A DNA stretch of 64,000 nucleotides from Flavobacterium caseinilyticum (GTDB taxonomy: Bacteria; Bacteroidota; Bacteroidia; Flavobacteriales; Flavobacteriaceae): NCBI RefSeq assembly GCF_004349085.1, contig NZ_SMFM01000001.1, positions 620,001-684,000 of the forward strand, given 5' to 3'. The notes beneath the pieces were generated by a model, which worked only from the letters and a program-made list of their open reading frames with translations, ran no database searches and was not told where the DNA came from. Positions 12,963 to 24,410 of the stretch are shown here, one piece after another (positions within the stretch are counted from its first letter, which is position 1; each line of letters begins with the position of its first letter). Position numbers and translations under genes: made by a program.

Positions 12963-14759
12963 ATGTCAGCAGAAGGTCACGATCACGCAATAGATCACGA
13001 ACACGAACACCACCATAAAGACACTTTTATTACTAAATATATTTTTAGTATTGATCATAAAATGATTGCCAAACAATATCTTATTACTGGTATTTTTATG
13101 GGGATTATTGGAGTTGGAATGTCTTTGCTTTTTAGAATGCAATTGGCATGGCCAGAAGAGTCTTTTAGAATTTTCAACATATTACTTGGTGATAAATTTG
13201 CTCCTAATGGCGTAATGGCAAATGATATTTATCTGGCATTGGTTACCATACATGGAACTATAATGGTATTTTTTGTATTAACAGCAGCGCTAAGTGGTAC
13301 CTTTAGTAATTTGCTTATACCGCTTCAGATTGGTGCTAGAGATATGGCATCCGGTTTTATGAATATGGTTTCTTATTGGCTATTCTTCTTGTCCAGTGTT
13401 ATCATGATCGGTTCACTTTTTGTTGAAGCTGGACCAGCTTCCTCAGGTTGGACAATTTATCCTCCTTTGAGTGCTTTACCACAAGCTATTCCTGGTTCTG
13501 GTATGGGTATGACATTATGGTTAGTTTCTATGGCTATTTTTATTGCATCTTCTTTAATGGGGTCTTTAAATTATGTAGTTACGGTAATTAACTTAAGAAC
13601 TAAAGGAATGTCTATGACAAGACTACCGTTGACAATTTGGGCTTTCTTTGTAACGGCTATTATTGGTATCGTTTCTTTCCCGGTTCTTTTATCTGCAGCA
13701 TTGCTGTTGATTTTTGATAGAAGTTTTGGAACATCATTCTTCTTGTCTGATATATACATTGCCGGTGAAGTTTTACATTACCAAGGAGGTTCACCAGTAT
13801 TGTTCGAGCACTTATTTTGGTTCTTAGGTCACCCTGAGGTTTATATAGTTTTACTTCCTGCTTTAGGAATTACTTCTGAAGTTATTGCAACAAATTCTCG
13901 TAAACCAATTTTTGGTTACAGAGCGATGATTATGTCTATTATTGCAATTGCATTCTTATCAACTATTGTTTGGGGTCACCACATGTTTATCTCGGGTATG
14001 AATCCATTTTTAGGATCCGTATTTACCTTTACAACATTACTGATTGCTATTCCTTCTGCCGTTAAAGCGTTTAATTACATTACAACATTATGGAAAGGTA
14101 ACTTGCAATTGAATCCTGCTATGTTGTTTTCAATTGGTTTAGTTTCAACGTTTATCACAGGTGGTTTAACAGGAATTATACTGGGAGACAGTACACTTGA
14201 TATCAATGTGCACGATACTTATTTTGTAGTTGCTCACTTTCACCTTGTAATGGGTATTTCTGCTCTTTACGGTATGTTTGCTGGAATCTATCACTGGTTT
14301 CCAAGAATGTTCGGAAGAATGTTAAACAAAAATCTTGGATATGTACACTTTTGGGTAACCGCTATCTGTGCTTATGGAGTTTTCTTCCCAATGCACTTTA
14401 TTGGATTAGCTGGTTTACCAAGACGTTATTATACAAACACAAACTTCCCGTTATTTGATGATTTGCAAAACGTAAACGTTTTGATTACAACATTTGCATT
14501 AATTGGTGGGGCATTTCAATTGGTTTTCTTATATAACTTTTTCGTTAGTATTTTCTACGGTAAAAAATCTGTAATGAATCCATGGAAATCGAATACACTT
14601 GAGTGGACTGCTCCTGTGGAACACATACACGGTAACTGGCCAGGTGAAATTCCTGAGGTGTATCGTTGGCCTTATGACTACAGTAATCCAGCTCATGATG
14701 TGGATTTTGTACCTCAAAACGTTCCAATGAAAGAAGGTGAAGAAGTTTTACACCATTAA
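12963..14759 (+). CDS. coxA: Cytochrome c oxidase subunit I
   Basis: This is the catalytic subunit of a heme-copper oxidase with twelve or so membrane helices in 598 residues. The heme a ligand His is in VTIHGTI (near 96), GHPEVY (near 289) contributes the CuB His and the cross-linked Tyr, HH in GHHMF (near 338) are the other CuB ligands, and HDTYFVVAHFHLVMG (near 417) carries the two heme ligands. The Tyr in GHPEVY and the subunit architecture point to an A-type (aa3) oxidase. The N-terminus is a His-rich stretch (HDHAIDHEHEHHH) that could bind metal. A strong terminator follows at 14772, closing the operon. Confidence 0.96.
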   Translation: MSAEGHDHAIDHEHEHHHKDTFITKYIFSIDHKMIAKQYLITGIFMGIIGVGMSLLFRMQLAWPEESFRIFNILLGDKFAPNGVMANDIYLALVTIHGTIMVFFVLTAALSGTFSNLLIPLQIGARDMASGFMNMVSYWLFFLSSVIMIGSLFVEAGPASSGWTIYPPLSALPQAIPGSGMGMTLWLVSMAIFIASSLMGSLNYVVTVINLRTKGMSMTRLPLTIWAFFVTAIIGIVSFPVLLSAALLLIFDRSFGTSFFLSDIYIAGEVLHYQGGSPVLFEHLFWFLGHPEVYIVLLPALGITSEVIATNSRKPIFGYRAMIMSIIAIAFLSTIVWGHHMFISGMNPFLGSVFTFTTLLIAIPSAVKAFNYITTLWKGNLQLNPAMLFSIGLVSTFITGGLTGIILGDSTLDINVHDTYFVVAHFHLVMGISALYGMFAGIYHWFPRMFGRMLNKNLGYVHFWVTAICAYGVFFPMHFIGLAGLPRRYYTNTNFPLFDDLQNVNVLITTFALIGGAFQLVFLYNFFVSIFYGKKSVMNPWKSNTLEWTAPVEHIHGNWPGEIPEVYRWPYDYSNPAHDVDFVPQNVPMKEGEEVLHH

Positions 14760-14771
14760 AAATATAATGAT

Positions 14772-14800
14772 AAGCCTCTGCGAAAGTAGAGGCTTTTTTT
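14772..14800 (+). terminator. Terminator of the act-cox operon
   Basis: An 8-bp stem (AAGCCTCT against AGAGGCTT) with an 8-nt loop is followed by a T run, 12 nt after the coxA stop codon. Confidence 0.9.
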
Positions 14801-14903
14801 GTGCTCTTTATTTCTGTTTACCAAAGTGCTACCGATACTTATAGCAGTTTTTTAATTTTTTCAGCATTTAAAATTTAAAATTTAAAATTCGAAATTGCTT
14901 TGC

Positions 14904-14911
14904 TATCTTTG
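14904..14911 (+). promoter_or_regulatory. Promoter -7 element of ruvB
   Basis: TATCTTTG matches TAnnTTTG and ends only 4 nt before the ruvB ATG, which suggests a leaderless or near-leaderless mRNA. A good TTG at -33 is not visible; the region upstream is a short ATTTAAA-type repeat (about 14866-14888). Confidence 0.55.
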
Positions 14912-14915
14912 TTAG

Positions 14916-15938
14916 ATGAATGAAAATTTAGATCCAACATCAAACGGTTACAATTCGGAAGAACTTGATCTTGAAAAAAAATTAAGGCCACTTTCTTTTG
15001 ATGATTTTGCAGGACAAGAGCAAATTTTAGAAAACCTTAAAGTTTTTGTTCAAGCGGCAAATCAACGAAATGAAGCGCTTGATCATACCCTGTTTCACGG
15101 GCCTCCCGGTTTAGGAAAAACAACATTAGCCAATATTCTTGCTAATGAATTACAAGTTGGTATCAAAATTACCTCTGGTCCAGTTTTAGACAAACCTGGC
15201 GATTTAGCTGGTTTATTGACGAATCTAGAAGAAAGGGACGTTCTATTTATTGATGAAATTCATCGTTTGAGTCCGATCGTAGAAGAATATTTGTATTCAG
15301 CAATGGAGGATTTTAAAATTGATATCATGATTGAATCAGGACCAAATGCACGAACAGTTCAAATTAATCTAAATCCATTCACTTTAATTGGAGCTACGAC
15401 ACGTTCGGGTTTATTGACCGCTCCTATGAGAGCTCGTTTTGGAATTTCCTCCCGTTTACAATATTACACCACAGAGTTACTAACCACAATCGTGGAAAGA
15501 AGTGCTACCATTTTTAAAATGCCAATATCCATGGAAGCAGCCATAGAAATTGCAGGCCGAAGCAGGGGAACTCCTCGTATTGCTAACGCATTATTGCGTC
15601 GGGTACGTGATTTTGCTCAAATAAAAGGAAATGGTACAATTGACATTGAGATTGCTCGTTATGCTTTAAAAGCCCTTAACGTTGACGCTCATGGTCTGGA
15701 TGAGATGGATAATAAAATTTTAACGACAATTATCGATAAATTCAAGGGCGGACCCGTTGGATTGACAACTTTGGCTACAGCCGTTTCCGAAAGCAGCGAG
15801 ACAATCGAGGAAGTCTATGAACCGTTTTTAATTCAGGAAGGATTTATCATGAGAACTCCTCGTGGTAGGGAAGTCACCGATAAAGCATACAAGCACTTGG
15901 GCAAATTAAATACAAATATTCAAGGCGGTTTATTCTAA
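14916..15938 (+). CDS. ruvB: Holliday junction branch migration helicase RuvB
   Basis: RuvB is the AAA+ motor that, with RuvA, drives Holliday junction branch migration in recombinational repair. The 340 residues show the Walker [10 protein letters not shown] (about 65-73), Walker B LFIDEIHR, the sensor region [18 protein letters not shown] with its arginine finger, and the C-terminal winged helix ending [15 protein letters not shown]. The length is normal for the family. It stands alone after the oxidase operon, with ruvA 11.5 kb downstream, as is usual in Flavobacterium. The promoter element is almost touching the start codon. Confidence 0.97.
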
Positions 15939-17010: not shown

Positions 17011-18042
17011 CTAACTATTTACTCTAATAGAAGATTCTCTGATAATAACATGGGTATCTAACTCCACTGTTCTAGGAGTAAAGGGAATTCCTTCTCTATG
17101 GCAATTCATTTCTTCCAGTAATAAATTGAAAGATTCAACCCCCATAGCATGACTCGGTTGATCAACTGTACTTAGTTTTGGTGTAATTACTTGAGACATA
17201 AACCAATTACTAAAGCCAATCACGGAAACTTGTTCTGGAATTTTAATTCCTGCGTCATTAAAATAGGAAAGCACTCCTACGGCAACGAGGTCTGTAATAG
17301 CAAATATCCCGTCAATATCGCTGTGTTCTTTAATAATTTGTTCAGCGAAAGCTCTTCCTTCTTCAAAAGTTACGTGTTCACAAGTATAAACCAATTTCGC
17401 ATCAAAAGGGATATTATTTTTTTCTAATGCTTTTTTGTATCCAATGAATCTGTCAATTGAATTTTGAGGATTCAATGGGCCTCGAATATGTGCTATTTTT
17501 TTGCATCCGTTATCAATCAAATGTTGCACCGCATTAAAAGCAGCTTTTTGATCATTAATAATTACTTTTGAGCATTTTGAAAGCTTGGCAATTTTGTCAA
17601 ACATTACAAAAGGAATTTTCCGATTGATTATTTCTTTTATGTGGTCATCATTATTAGACTCATTCGATAAAGACATTATAATACCGTCTACTCTTTTGTT
17701 AATCAGTAATTCGACTTGTTTTTTTTCTAAAGCAAGAGTTTCGTTGGATTGTAATATGATCACTAAATAACCGTTTTTTTCAGCCTCATCAACAATTCCA
17801 TTTATTACGTTTGAAAAGAAGTGATGAACAATTTCCGGAATAATTAAACCAATAGTTTTGGATTCTTTAGTTCTTAGATTAACAGCAAAAGAGTTAGGGC
17901 TGTAGTTGAGTTTTTTAGCTAATGAAATAACAGCATCTTTAGTTTTTAAACTGACATCAGGATAATTTTTTAGCGCTTTCGATACAGTAGTAATTGATAT
18001 GCCCAATTTTTCTGCAATTTCCTTGAGAGTAGCTTCTTTCAT
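17011..18042 (-). CDS. LacI-family regulator of the sugar locus
   Basis: This 343-residue LacI/GalR regulator has an N-terminal helix-turn-helix (TLKEIAEKLGISITTVSKAL, about 4-23) with hinge helix near SPNSFAVNLRT, then a periplasmic-binding-protein-like effector domain (about 60-340) with motifs such as KTIGLIIPEI and DGIFAITDLVAVG. It is divergent from the TonB-dependent receptor, and two perfect LacI-type palindromes lie in the 159-nt gap between them. It is therefore likely to control the receptor, permease, hydrolase and fructokinase genes, and itself. The inducer is probably a sugar from the locus, sucrose or a breakdown product, but this is inferred from neighbours. Confidence 0.92.
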   Translation of the reverse strand: MKEATLKEIAEKLGISITTVSKALKNYPDVSLKTKDAVISLAKKLNYSPNSFAVNLRTKESKTIGLIIPEIVHHFFSNVINGIVDEAEKNGYLVIILQSNETLALEKKQVELLINKRVDGIIMSLSNESNNDDHIKEIINRKIPFVMFDKIAKLSKCSKVIINDQKAAFNAVQHLIDNGCKKIAHIRGPLNPQNSIDRFIGYKKALEKNNIPFDAKLVYTCEHVTFEEGRAFAEQIIKEHSDIDGIFAITDLVAVGVLSYFNDAGIKIPEQVSVIGFSNWFMSQVITPKLSTVDQPSHAMGVESFNLLLEEMNCHREGIPFTPRTVELDTHVIIRESSIRVNS

Positions 18043-18046
18043 TAGA

Positions 18047-18076
18047 CAAATATGATAAAATAATTTTTCAAATCAA
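18047..18076 (-). promoter_or_regulatory. Probable promoter of the LacI-type regulator
   Basis: On the minus strand TTG (18076-18074) is followed after 19 nt by CATATTTG (18054-18047), one mismatch from TAnnTTTG. The last base is 4 nt from the ATG at 18042. The proximal operator begins just upstream of the -33 position, so autoregulation is likely. Confidence 0.5.
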
Positions 18077-18077
18077 A

Positions 18078-18093
18078 TCGAAAACGTTTTCGG
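18078..18093. promoter_or_regulatory. LacI-type operator 1
   Basis: TCGAAAACGTTTTCGG is a 14-bp perfect palindrome (18079-18092) with the central CG typical of LacI/GalR operators. It is spaced 20 bp centre to centre from operator 2, about two helical turns, which suits cooperative binding on one DNA face. Confidence 0.88.
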
Positions 18094-18097
18094 TACT

Positions 18098-18113
18098 TCG
18101 AAAACGTTTTCGA
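18098..18113. promoter_or_regulatory. LacI-type operator 2
   Basis: TCGAAAACGTTTTCGA is a perfect 16-bp palindrome with central CG, the second of the pair between the divergent regulator and receptor genes. It lies about 35 bp upstream of the likely -7 element of the receptor gene. Confidence 0.88.
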
Positions 18114-18147
18114 TTATATAATTCGTTTTTAATTTCCTTAATAAATA

Positions 18148-18155
18148 TACATTTG
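18148..18155 (+). promoter_or_regulatory. Probable promoter -7 element of the TonB-dependent receptor gene
   Basis: TACATTTG matches TAnnTTTG and would give a leader of about 40 nt. There is no TTG at the expected -33 position, which would fit a promoter that needs an activator. Confidence 0.5.
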
Positions 18156-20917: not shown

Positions 20918-22294
20918 ATGTTTAAAAAGGTAAAACTCAATTTTTGGCAAATATGGAATATGAATTTTGGATTTTTCGGAATTCAATTCAGTTTTGGGTT
21001 ACAGCAAAGTAACATGAGTGCGATTTATAAATATTTAGGAGCTGATGAAGGTAGTTTGCCTATGTTATGGCTTGCAGGGCCTATTACAGGTTTAATAATT
21101 CAACCTATTGTTGGAGCGGTTAGTGATGGCACCTGGTCACCAAAATTTGGTCGGAGAAAACCATTTTTCCTAATCGGAGCTTTAATATCAAGTTTTGCGT
21201 TGCTGGTGATGCCTTTTTCGAATTCTATTTTTATGGCTGCGAGTTTACTATGGATTTTAGATGCTGCAAATAATTTAGCAATGGAGCCGTATCGTGCTTT
21301 TGTTGCCGATAAACTAGATCAAAAACAACAATCACTAGGTTTTTTAATGCAAAGTTTCTTTACCGGTTTAGGTATTACTTTGGCTAATTTTACTCCTGCT
21401 ATTTTAGTGGCATTTGGGATTTTGGCAATTACGGATAAATTATCAAATGGGATTCCAACGTATACTTATTGGGCTTTTTTCATTGGTGCATTTGCTTCTA
21501 TTACATCGGTTCTGATTTCAGTTTTCACAACAAATGAATATCCGCCAACGGAAGAGGAGTTAGCATTGATTAATGAAAAGAAAAAGCAAAATATTTTTAA
21601 TACAGTTTTAGTTGACATTGTACAGGCATTCAAAACAATGCCATCAACAATGAAACAATTAATACCTGTTAAATTCTTTACTTGGTATGCTATGTTTTGT
21701 TATTGGCAATATATTACATCCACACTTTCAATATCTATTTACAATACCACAGATCAGGCATCACAAGGATTTTCTAAAGCACAATTGTTGACAGGTAGTT
21801 TAAATGGGACCTATAATATAATTTGTTTTATGGTTGCTTTTTTACTGGTTCCTTTAGCAATTAAAATTGGAGCAAAAGGAGTTCACTTTTTTGCTTTATT
21901 ATTAGGTGGAATAGGCTTACTGAGCATTCCGTTTTTAAATAATACTGATGTTCTGTTTATACTGCACAATCCCTTTGGTGAAAACGTAGCAGTGACTACC
22001 ATCTTTTTATATTCATTTGGATTAGGTATCTCGTGGGCTTCTATGATGGCGATGCCTTATCAGCTTTTGGCTGGTTCTATTCCAAAAGATAAAACAGGTA
22101 CTTACATGGGGATTTTCAATATGTTTATTGTAATACCAATGGCGATTCAAGTGCTGACGATGCAATATTTCGTCTATGATTTATTAGGAAGGAATCCGCT
22201 GAATGTAATTAAATTAGCAGGTGTTTTTTTAATTTTGGGGGCAATTTTCACTCTTTTTATAACTGTTAAAAATAGAAAAGAAACTAAAGCATGA
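20918..22294 (+). CDS. MFS sugar permease of the sucrose/maltose (SLC45-like) type
   Basis: The 458-residue protein has about twelve hydrophobic segments and should carry a disaccharide across the inner membrane, probably with protons. The loop after the second helix reads GAVSDGTWSPKFGRRKP, the MFS motif in the form seen in sucrose and related transporters (GRRKPF). DAANNLAMEPYRAFVADKL is also typical of this group. It is followed by the hydrolase gene with an ATGA-type overlap. Sucrose is the likely substrate given the fructokinase, but maltose or another glucoside is possible. Confidence 0.85.
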   Translation: MFKKVKLNFWQIWNMNFGFFGIQFSFGLQQSNMSAIYKYLGADEGSLPMLWLAGPITGLIIQPIVGAVSDGTWSPKFGRRKPFFLIGALISSFALLVMPFSNSIFMAASLLWILDAANNLAMEPYRAFVADKLDQKQQSLGFLMQSFFTGLGITLANFTPAILVAFGILAITDKLSNGIPTYTYWAFFIGAFASITSVLISVFTTNEYPPTEEELALINEKKKQNIFNTVLVDIVQAFKTMPSTMKQLIPVKFFTWYAMFCYWQYITSTLSISIYNTTDQASQGFSKAQLLTGSLNGTYNIICFMVAFLLVPLAIKIGAKGVHFFALLLGGIGLLSIPFLNNTDVLFILHNPFGENVAVTTIFLYSFGLGISWASMMAMPYQLLAGSIPKDKTGTYMGIFNMFIVIPMAIQVLTMQYFVYDLLGRNPLNVIKLAGVFLILGAIFTLFITVKNRKETKA

Positions 22295-23469
22295 TGAAAA
22301 ATATAGATTACAATAAAGCAATTGAATTATTGCAGAATGCTTCGTCAAAAGAAGGGTTCTTAGCAAGCGCTCAAAATATTTCAAATTACAGAAGAGTTTG
22401 GGCTCGAGATGGAGTGATTTGTGGTTTAGCTGCCCTAGCTTCAGCTGATGAAAAATTGATTGAGACCTTTGGTAACACATTAGAAACATTAGCAAAAAAT
22501 CAGCATCACAATGGTACAATTCCTTCAAATGTAATGACTGATGGAGATGTTGTTGAAGTGAGTTATGGAGGTTTAGCCGGAAGGGTTGATGCTGTTACTT
22601 GGTTTGTTATTGGTATATGTCAATACGCTTTTTATAAAAAGGATGAGGCCTTTATTCAAAAATACGATAGTAATATTCAAAAGTGTTTACAGCTCTTAGA
22701 AGCATGGGAATTTAATAATAAACATCTTCTTTATGTTCCTCTTTCAGGAAATTGGGCGGATGAATACATAACAGATGGTTATGTATTGTATGATCAATTA
22801 TTGAGAGTGTGGGCTTTAAAAAGTTATAATTATTTTTGTAAAAGTGATTCGATAGCAGATAAAATCGAACAAATAACGCAACAGTTAGCAATTAATTTTG
22901 GTCCTGATTCAGAAGGAGAGAAATACCATGAAAGGGCATACAAGGAAGCTAATATTCAAAATTTCATGCCTTGTTCGTTTTCGCCAGCGGGTTATAAAAT
23001 GCAATTTGATGCTTTTGCAAATTCCTTAGCTATACTTTTAAATATAGGAAAACCTCTATTTCAAGAAAATATTTTATCCTATTCTATAGGTTTAAAAAAC
23101 AAAATGCCATTAAAGTTATTGCCCGCTTTCTGGCCGCCAATAAAAGAAAATGATGTAGACTGGAACTTACTTAAGAATAATTATAAATACGAATTCAGGA
23201 ACTTTCCAAATGAATTTCATAATGGCGGCAGTTGGTCAATGGTTAATGGATTTTACGGTATTGCTTTGTTGAATTCAACAAAAAAAGAAGAAGCTATTGA
23301 AATACTGAAAGCTATAAATGCTATTAATAAACTTGAGAATTATAGTTTTTATGAAAATTTCAACAGTAAAACCCAAATGCCAAATGGTGTTTTACATTGT
23401 GCATGGAGCGCAGCTGCAACCGTAATGTTGCATCAAAGTATTTATAATGATTTTAAATATTTAGTTTAA
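22291..23469 (+). CDS. (alpha/alpha)6-barrel glycoside hydrolase, invertase-like
   Basis: This 392-residue cytoplasmic protein (no signal peptide) looks like the (alpha/alpha)6-barrel hydrolases usually annotated as glycogen debranching or GH100-type enzymes. Recognisable stretches are RRVWARDGVICGLAAL (about 32-47), with the Asp in the position of the catalytic acid region, SGNWADEY (about 154), and FHNGGSW (about 307), which recalls the HNGGSW motif of neutral/alkaline invertases. Its position between a sucrose-type permease and a fructokinase suggests that it cleaves sucrose inside the cell. It starts within the permease stop (ATG 22291 or 22294). The family is moderately sure; the substrate is inferred. 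Confidence 0.7.
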   Translation: MMKNIDYNKAIELLQNASSKEGFLASAQNISNYRRVWARDGVICGLAALASADEKLIETFGNTLETLAKNQHHNGTIPSNVMTDGDVVEVSYGGLAGRVDAVTWFVIGICQYAFYKKDEAFIQKYDSNIQKCLQLLEAWEFNNKHLLYVPLSGNWADEYITDGYVLYDQLLRVWALKSYNYFCKSDSIADKIEQITQQLAINFGPDSEGEKYHERAYKEANIQNFMPCSFSPAGYKMQFDAFANSLAILLNIGKPLFQENILSYSIGLKNKMPLKLLPAFWPPIKENDVDWNLLKNNYKYEFRNFPNEFHNGGSWSMVNGFYGIALLNSTKKEEAIEILKAINAINKLENYSFYENFNSKTQMPNGVLHCAWSAAATVMLHQSIYNDFKYLV

Positions 23470-23474
23470 AAAAA

Positions 23475-24410
23475 ATGAAAAAATCTATTGATATAATTTG
23501 CATTGGGGAAGTTTTAATTGATTTTATTGGTCATCAAATTGATACTTCAATAAATAGAACTAAAGATTTTCACCGATTTTTAGGTGGGTCTCCTACAAAT
23601 GTCGCTGTAAATGCAACAAGATTAGGCTTGAAATCAGTTTTGGTCGCTACGTGCGGTCAAGATGGATTAGGAGATTATATTGTTCGTAAATTGAAAGCAA
23701 ATAATGTTATTACTTCTCAGATAAAGAAAATTGATTACAAGCCAACTTCGGTAATATTTGTTTCTAAATCTACGGGAACTCCCGATTTTATCCCATTTAG
23801 AGAAGCTGACGCTCAAATTGACCCGAGTCAAATTTCAGATGATTTACTTGAAAAAGCTAAAATTTTTCATACCACTTGTTTTGCCCTAAGTAAGGATCCT
23901 GCTCGCACGACAATTCTTGAAAGTGCCAAAAGAGCGAAGCAGTTAGGACTGAAAACAAGTATTGATATCAATTTTTCGGAACGAATATGGAATGATAGAG
24001 AGGAAGCAAAATTAGTTTTAAAGGAGTACTTAGCAACGGATCCTTTAGTGAAATTAAGTGAAGACGACTGCTACAGACTTTTTGCAGAATCTAAAACGGA
24101 GGATTTTATTTTTGAATATTTCCATGGCTTAGGCGCTTCAACTATTTGCCTGACAAAAGGGAAGGAAGGAGTAGTTTTATCAGATAAGACATTTGGTCTT
24201 TTTCATCAAAAAGCAATGGCAGTTTCCGAAATAAAAGACGCTACGGGTGCTGGTGATGCTTTTTGGACTGGATTTTTGTATGCGCAACTTTTGAATAAAA
24301 ATTTTACTGATACGATTCATCTAGCGCAGAAATTAGCAGTGTTGAAATTACAAAATGTTGGAAGGCTTCCTACTGATATTGACATCAGTTCTTTTTTAGA
24401 AGTGGAGTAA
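23475..24410 (+). CDS. PfkB-family fructokinase
   Basis: A 311-residue PfkB/ribokinase-family sugar kinase. The N-terminal signature GGSPTNVAVNATRLG (about 35-49) and the C-terminal DATGAGDAFWTGF (about 255-267, holding the catalytic Asp) are intact. Next to a sucrose-type permease and an invertase-like hydrolase, it most likely phosphorylates fructose released from sucrose to fructose 6-phosphate. 2-keto-3-deoxygluconate kinase is the main alternative in this family, but no Entner-Doudoroff genes are nearby. It follows the hydrolase by 5 nt and is the last gene of the locus. Confidence 0.87.
   Translation: MKKSIDIICIGEVLIDFIGHQIDTSINRTKDFHRFLGGSPTNVAVNATRLGLKSVLVATCGQDGLGDYIVRKLKANNVITSQIKKIDYKPTSVIFVSKSTGTPDFIPFREADAQIDPSQISDDLLEKAKIFHTTCFALSKDPARTTILESAKRAKQLGLKTSIDINFSERIWNDREEAKLVLKEYLATDPLVKLSEDDCYRLFAESKTEDFIFEYFHGLGASTICLTKGKEGVVLSDKTFGLFHQKAMAVSEIKDATGAGDAFWTGFLYAQLLNKNFTDTIHLAQKLAVLKLQNVGRLPTDIDISSFLEVE

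Follow-up and report, generated by a model that had tools for sequence, protein, structure and literature searches.

Phased tandem operators upstream of a TonB-dependent receptor promoter in Flavobacterium caseinilyticum as candidate sites of activation by a LacI-family regulator

The divergent regulator–receptor locus

The analysed window is a stretch of 64,000 nucleotides from Flavobacterium caseinilyticum (NCBI RefSeq assembly GCF_004349085.1, contig NZ_SMFM01000001.1, positions 620,001 to 684,000). In this window the genes for a TonB-dependent receptor and a LacI-family regulator, the latter being one of three LacI-family genes in the genome, are divergently oriented, and two exact GAAAACGTTTTC cores are located between them (Table 1). 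The regulator contains an N-terminal LacI helix-turn-helix domain (PF00356) and a periplasmic-binding-protein-like domain (PF13377), both above cut-off, which places it in the LacI/GalR family. When the protein was compared with PDB sequences, CcpA gave the best matches and PurR appeared lower in the list. None of the NCBIfam models listed was matched above its cut-off, among them the CcpA equivalog TIGR01481 (193.1 bits, cut-off 442.35) and the D-fructose-responsive sucrose repressor TIGR02417 (132.3 bits, cut-off 389.55).

The receptor gene is followed by genes for an MFS transporter, a GH100-like glycosidase and a PfkB-family kinase, and this is the sucrose-type gene context of regulators of the ScrR and SuxR kind. 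No SusD-like protein was found by Pfam among these three genes. Based on their domains, the four genes constitute a probable sucrose operon; the sucrose and fructokinase models gave matches, in both cases under the cut-off. The GH100-like protein had a weak match to alkaline invertase structures (best E 0.002). This putative invertase is far from known structures and may represent a distinct GH100-like group.

Table 1. Coordinates of genes, operators and promoter elements at the locus (positions within the window).
Feature	Coordinates	Strand	Basis or remark
LacI/GalR-family regulator, 343 aa	17011..18042	-	Pfam LacI PF00356 and Peripla_BP_3 above cut-off
Regulator -7 box CATATTTG	18047..18054	-	predicted +1 = 18042, A of the start codon (leaderless)
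Regulator -33 TTG	18074..18076	-	spacer 19 bp; 2 bp from operator 1 palindrome
Operator 1, perfect 14-bp palindrome CGAAAACGTTTTCG, core 18080-18091	18079..18092		palindrome check, conserved pair
Operator 2, perfect 16-bp palindrome TCGAAAACGTTTTCGA, core 18100-18111	18098..18113		palindrome check
Receptor -7 box TACATTTG	18148..18155	+	starts 36 bp past operator 2 core edge (18111); predicted +1 18160
TonB-dependent receptor, 874 aa	18202..20826	+	Pfam plug, barrel, CarbopepD_reg_2
MFS transporter resembling GPH sucrose symporters	20918..22294	+	Pfam MFS_1; GPH_sucrose below cut-off
GH100-like glycosidase, possible invertase	22291..23469	+	Pfam GH100
PfkB-family sugar kinase, possible fructokinase	23475..24410	+	Pfam PfkB; fructokinase model below cut-off

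The initial annotation had described two perfect palindromes with cores 20 bp apart, located upstream of the receptor promoter instead of over it and next to the -33 element of the regulator gene, and all three statements were confirmed by the coordinates in Table 1. The operator pair and the receptor promoter do not overlap. Taken as a whole, the region 18076-18115 is an inverted repeat whose 17-nt arms are separated by 6 nt. Each operator is an even palindrome with a central CG, a feature described for LacI/GalR-family operators (PMC4052901). The exact 12-mer occurs four times in the 3.84-Mb genome, twice at this locus, versus 0.44 occurrences expected from the base composition of the window.

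Transcription starts were predicted by taking the sigma-A -7 box as spanning -12 to -5, as described for F. psychrophilum (PMC9723704). With respect to the predicted start of the receptor, operators 1 and 2 are centered at -74.5 and -54.5, and with respect to that of the regulator at -43.5 and -63.5. The regulator mRNA is predicted to be leaderless (18040-18054, minus strand), as the distance from the end of the -7 box to the ATG is 4 nt. The motif.ATATTTG was present in 30 of 69 non-redundant regulator sides collected from other loci, and in 20 of those 30 it was located 4 nt before the start of the open reading frame.

Conservation of the operator pair and of its distance to the target promoter

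The exact pair was searched for in other genomes with gaps of 4-34, and the reversed pattern was used as a control. The pair was found in 27 of 397 genomes of the family and in 77 of 398 genomes of the genus, and the reversed pattern had 0 matches in every genome listed. A class-wide sample of 395 genomes contained the exact pair in three, all belonging to its 14 family members, and in none of the 381 class genomes outside the family. The genome studied here has one exact pair. Among the best 80 of 172 loci obtained by searching with the regulator (Flavobacterium-type), 39 had a divergent pair in which neither core carried more than one mismatch, and at all 39 a TAnnTT-type box 35 or 36 bp from the operator was among the three best candidates. 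At those loci without a divergent pair that were looked at, the regulator comes after GH32, GH13 or kinase genes. A search with gaps of 6-11, which took 39 of the 41 loci without a divergent pair (L061 and L064 were left out), found an exact pair in 6 of the 39 genomes. Of 102 loci fetched, 99 were distinct, and the centers of their operators were 21 bp apart in 76, 20 bp in 22 and 27 bp in one. The spacing was therefore 20 or 21 bp in 98 of the 99 distinct loci, though gaps of 4-34 (6-11 in one search) were permitted. The pairing itself is not new, because tandem LacI sites 21-22 bp apart are known in other groups (PMC4052901).

After near-identical flanks had been removed, the set comprised 81 sides facing a target gene (target sides), 69 facing the regulator gene (regulator sides) and 4 that faced no gene. 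By BLAST clustering, the 81 targets comprised 74 TonB receptors, 3 GH65 proteins, 2 GH32 proteins, 1 PfkB kinase and 1 protein that stood alone. The relaxed box TAnnTT[TCA]G, which like its further variants was set after the first loci had been seen and could bias the counts, started 35-37 bp from the operator in 59 of the 81 target sides; these are not independent cases, since many of the loci share a common origin. When the flanks were rotated (200 sets), the corresponding mean was 2.2 and the maximum 6 of 81. The strict box TAnnTTTG was present at 34-37 bp in 29 of the 81 sides. When further one-base variants were admitted, 75 sides could be assigned (35 bp in 29, 36 bp in 43 and 37 bp in 3), of which only 29 had a box ending in TTTG. 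With the box 35-37 bp past the operator in these 75 sides, the arrangement of a plain repressor, with its operator over the promoter, was not found. The six sides left over had TAnnTTGY at 35-36 bp (four), a box at 57 bp (one) and no box at all (one). The last of these, L151, was the only target side without any box and also the only locus with an operator spacing of 27 bp. At the four loci L146, L147, L148 and L155, where TAnnTTGY takes the place of TAnnTTTG, the spacing outlasts the change of box type; TAnnTTGY is the box described as SM5 in F. psychrophilum (PMC9723704).

The length of the spacer is conserved and its sequence hardly, since spacer identity between loci was 0.42 versus 0.36 expected from composition. 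Apart from the bases adjoining each element, the stretch from operator 2 to the box shows little conservation. This bears on the possibility that the receptor is repressed at a distance, either through a loop to another, unseen site or by blocking of an activator adjacent to the promoter. LacI-family proteins such as GalR can form loops (PMC4693257), and the upstream cre of the B. subtilis lev operon is reported to repress by keeping LevR from working with RNA polymerase (PMC3463425). However, sites with up to two mismatches occur within the window at chance level (10 versus 7.92 expected), which speaks against repression of this kind, as does the sparse conservation of the spacer. We consider it quite improbable.

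On the regulator sides, a box at 34-37 bp was present in 0 of 69 by the strict and in 2 of 69 by the relaxed definition, and under the loosest rule 9 of 69 had a box at 34-38 bp. The promoter of the regulator itself showed no single operator–box distance, and 14 of the 69 sides were without a candidate box. The operator adjoins the -33 region of the regulator or, in some genera, covers it; in several other genera the likely regulator box is 16-18 bp from the operator, so that the operator would cover the -33 position. The distance of 35-37 bp also holds for operons away from the regulator, and at some loci one pair serves two divergent operons with the regulator elsewhere. If the operators served the regulator only, as sites of autorepression, with the receptor controlled in another way or constitutive, the 2 bp between operator 1 and the regulator -33 TTG and the boxes at 16-18 bp in the other genera would be accounted for. 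Such an autorepressor would leave unexplained that the conserved distance is the one from the pair to the target promoter and not to that of the regulator, and that the pair is also found between two operons neither of which contains the regulator, and we regard this explanation as very improbable.

Several loci deserve individual description. In L271 (4789-18089), from another genus, the neighbourhood is similar in gene sizes and order, the regulator is 62% identical, and Pfam matches for MFS and PfkB were obtained; a 521-aa protein (13497-15062) had no Pfam match at 1e-8. This similarity suggests an old, vertically kept locus. In another Flavobacterium (L273, 7398-14396) the pair is flanked by a LacI-like gene on one side and a receptor-MFS-trehalase operon on the other; the control may thus have been retained through a change of sugar. 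In L094 (5733-5765) the regulator is 78% identical to that of the window and the operator pair has changed to two copies of GCAAACGTTTGC, 21 bp apart. The box of this diverged orthologue, which is outside the loci that formed the distance rule, is still at 35 bp despite the changed operators. On the same contig, a further LacI-like gene (L159) has an exact GAAAACGTTTTC pair next to it.

In the 3.1 kb around each of the two other LacI genes of the genome, no perfect CG-centered palindrome of 12 or 14 bp was found; one such palindrome with a single mismatch was present, in L018. The other two exact sites of the genome (L003 and L004) are single, with no partner of up to three mismatches nearby, and a global CcpA-like regulon is therefore not supported in this genome. 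A relaxed box lies 36 bp from the site in L003, with no gene reading that way, and 47 bp from the site in L004, so a role of the single sites is possible.

Helical steps in GH65 operons and in a paralogous regulator group

Nineteen operator pairs between divergent operons were tallied, degenerate ones included, and only boxes at 30-60 bp were counted. On the right side the box was at 35-37 bp in 11, at 39 bp in one and at 50 bp in one, and 6 had none. On the left side, where the gene was of GH65 type whenever it was checked, the box was at 56-57 bp in 10 (four with an extra box at 35 bp), at 46-47 bp in 2 and at 36-38 bp in 6, and one had none. An in-phase box was absent from 8 right sides and 1 left side of the 19, the boxes at 39 and 50 bp being included in this count.

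Across the genus, the GH65 gene was matched in 48 of 398 genomes. A tree was made of 45 of these matches, leaving out one at a contig end and two remote ones. At the 45 loci the box was located at 55-57 bp in 31, at 35-36 bp in 5 and at 46-47 bp in 4; four had no operator and one had no box. GH65 promoters were read at 62 of 127 loci, as no gene start was recognised in 65. In this reading the first box at a distance above 15 bp was taken, and 8 loci without an operator (at some of which the gene was misplaced, since L051 and L125 have a pair) and 2 without TAnnTTTG were dropped. The 30 non-redundant GH65 promoters with operator and box had the box at 35-36 bp in 2, at 46-47 bp in 5 and at 55-57 bp in 23, with L310, listed at 16 bp in one reading, counted at 56 bp. 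The cluster means were 35.5, 46.6 and 56.0 bp; periods of 10 and 10.5 fit them about equally and 9.5 and 11 less well, in a fit that rests on three clusters, too few for fine discrimination. In the 56-bp class, no hidden third operator was seen by eye.

On the tree of the 45 GH65 proteins, of whose 42 inner branches 16 are open, a minimum of two changes is required for the 35 class and likewise for the 46 class. Judged from these classes and the tree, the distances step by about one helical turn, and the steps appear to have been reached more than once independently. The helical positions were seen first in the 19 pairs and then checked on the wider GH65 set, which overlaps with them, and on paralogues.

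The paralogues are a LacI group 38-45% identical to the regulator, from which 20 upstream regions were chosen among the matches listed; this group was not used in forming the distance rule. An operator like GCAAACGTTTGC was present in 15 of the 20 regions and absent from 5. Ten of these 15 had the relaxed target box 45-47 bp away, about one turn beyond that of the window, and these ten are not independent, because the regulators are related to each other. A box in any in-phase position was found in 10 of 15 versus a mean of 2.46 and a maximum of 8 of 15 with rotated flanks, counting from the near-match closest to the promoter, a choice of operator that makes this reading differ from another one at some paralogues. 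Of the remaining five, L348 had the box at 41 bp and L342 and L350 had it at 19 bp, and L341 and L353 had no box in any of the in-phase positions. In 7 of the 15 loci (L337-L341, L347 and L349) a near-operator is found 12 bp from the main one, giving overlapping sites that resemble the 13-bp class described in PMC4052901.

Proposed activation from upstream and known LacI-family systems

The initial annotation had also taken the missing -33 TTG of the receptor as an argument for activation. The position at spacer 19 indeed reads TTT, but the argument is weak because control sites rarely have a TTG at spacer 18-21 either: it was present at 22 of 153 control TAnnTTTG sites of this genome. The targets had it in 4 of 74 (p 0.048 versus the controls), so that its absence is mildly enriched, and the GH65 promoters in 3 of 30. 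As the main proof of activation the missing element was rejected.

As the conserved neighbourhood suggests, the two palindromes would be tandem operators of the neighbouring LacI-family protein, on which two dimers could sit side by side on one DNA face. The pair lies wholly upstream of the receptor core promoter and, judging by the distances, on a fixed helical face relative to RNA polymerase, which is the arrangement of class I and CcpA-type activator sites. CcpA sites upstream of -35 are described as activating, and CcpA control as helix-face-dependent (PMC3463425). Whole-turn spacing at several distances would be needed for contact with RNA polymerase from upstream, and a repressor acting by exclusion would not need it. 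We therefore take the geometry to point to such contact. The protein would likely activate the receptor operon by touching RNA polymerase in a class I-like manner, with sucrose or a product of sucrose as the probable effector. As the same pair adjoins or covers the -33 region of the regulator, self-repression is plausible and would be the most likely effect on that side. Contact-dependent activation from upstream combined with self-repression, of the CcpA type, is the best explanation of the data and probably the correct one. The upstream sites, two-site binding and possible activation had been proposed in the initial annotation; the fixed and stepped distances strongly support the geometric part, and activation is what we infer from it.

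Phasing alone is compatible with either sign of control, because GalR bound at -60.5 represses a promoter on the same face (PMC4693257). The main rival is accordingly contact inhibition, in which the LacI-type protein bound upstream would hold RNA polymerase inactive, as GalR does, until released by the sugar. It requires the same fixed helical face, and the upstream position and the stepping fit it. GalR at -60.5 suffices to repress P1 (PMC4693257), and the functional counterpart in Xanthomonas, SuxR, acts as a repressor of an operon for sucrose with a TonB receptor (PMC1790865). On the other hand, distances of up to 55-57 bp, with the nearest operator center at about -74, seem far for polymerase trapping, and the target boxes are often imperfect, as seen in the low share of strict boxes at 34-37 bp (29/81), which would be unlike promoters held by a repressor. 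In Flavobacterium IR1, moreover, the lacI mutant resembles the susC mutant: a transposon in lacI23, beside a susC operon, and one in the neighbouring susC both abolished the response to fucoidan, with possible polarity noted by the authors (PMC9131120). These phenotypes, of a lacI gene that may or may not correspond to the regulator of the window, are in line with positive control. Taking these points together, contact inhibition appears unlikely, and we retain activation from upstream as the preferred reading.

Among known systems, CcpA of B. subtilis (ackA, pta and ilvB) is similar in belonging to the LacI/GalR family, in being the best PDB match and in activating from sites upstream of -35 with dependence on the helical face (PMC3463425). 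As a global regulator that acts together with HPr-Ser-P, CcpA differs from the system described here, in which one exact pair is present in the genome, the operators are in tandem and the promoter is the Bacteroidota type TAnnTTTG. Cra/FruR of E. coli, likewise of the LacI family, has a dual role as repressor of some genes and activator of others (PMC4052901), but it is a global regulator of central metabolism and acts on a different promoter type. GalR at galP1/P2 of E. coli is comparable in that an upstream operator, at -60.5, controls through contact with RNA polymerase, with a sign set by the helical face; GalR additionally forms a loop with a second operator at a distance of 113 bp (PMC4693257), whereas the sites described here are in tandem, 20-21 bp apart, at several permitted distances. 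SuxR of Xanthomonas is a LacI regulator of a sucrose locus with a TonB receptor and an MFS transporter and, unlike the activator proposed here, a repressor (PMC1790865). ScrR of Burkholderiales and RafR have double sites at 21-22 bp (PMC4052901). The descriptions of SuxR and ScrR in these two sources do not include a phase-locked upstream placement (PMC1790865, PMC4052901). In B. thetaiotaomicron, LacI regulators are listed for four sugar-acid regulons (PMC3878776).

In the open-access collection of papers searched, no report of this operator–promoter geometry in Bacteroidota was found. Where a LacI-family gene adjoins the gene for a SusC-like or TonB receptor, its product is usually assumed to be a repressor. 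It may be that, in Flavobacteriaceae generally, LacI-family sugar regulators act instead as phase-locked activators of the unusual Bacteroidota RNA polymerase and do not repress their uptake operons. They would act from discrete positions (nearest operator center at about -54, -64 or -75), one pair could drive two divergent operons, and the bound protein might replace the -33 element. We put this generalization forward tentatively, as a close call that leans slightly against it. If activation from upstream is correct, the expected effect of a regulator knock-out would be reversed, and a box 35-36, 46-47 or 55-57 bp from the operator would serve as a sequence rule for members of the regulon. 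The promoters collected here would then also provide a natural set for learning how activators contact the Bacteroidota polymerase.
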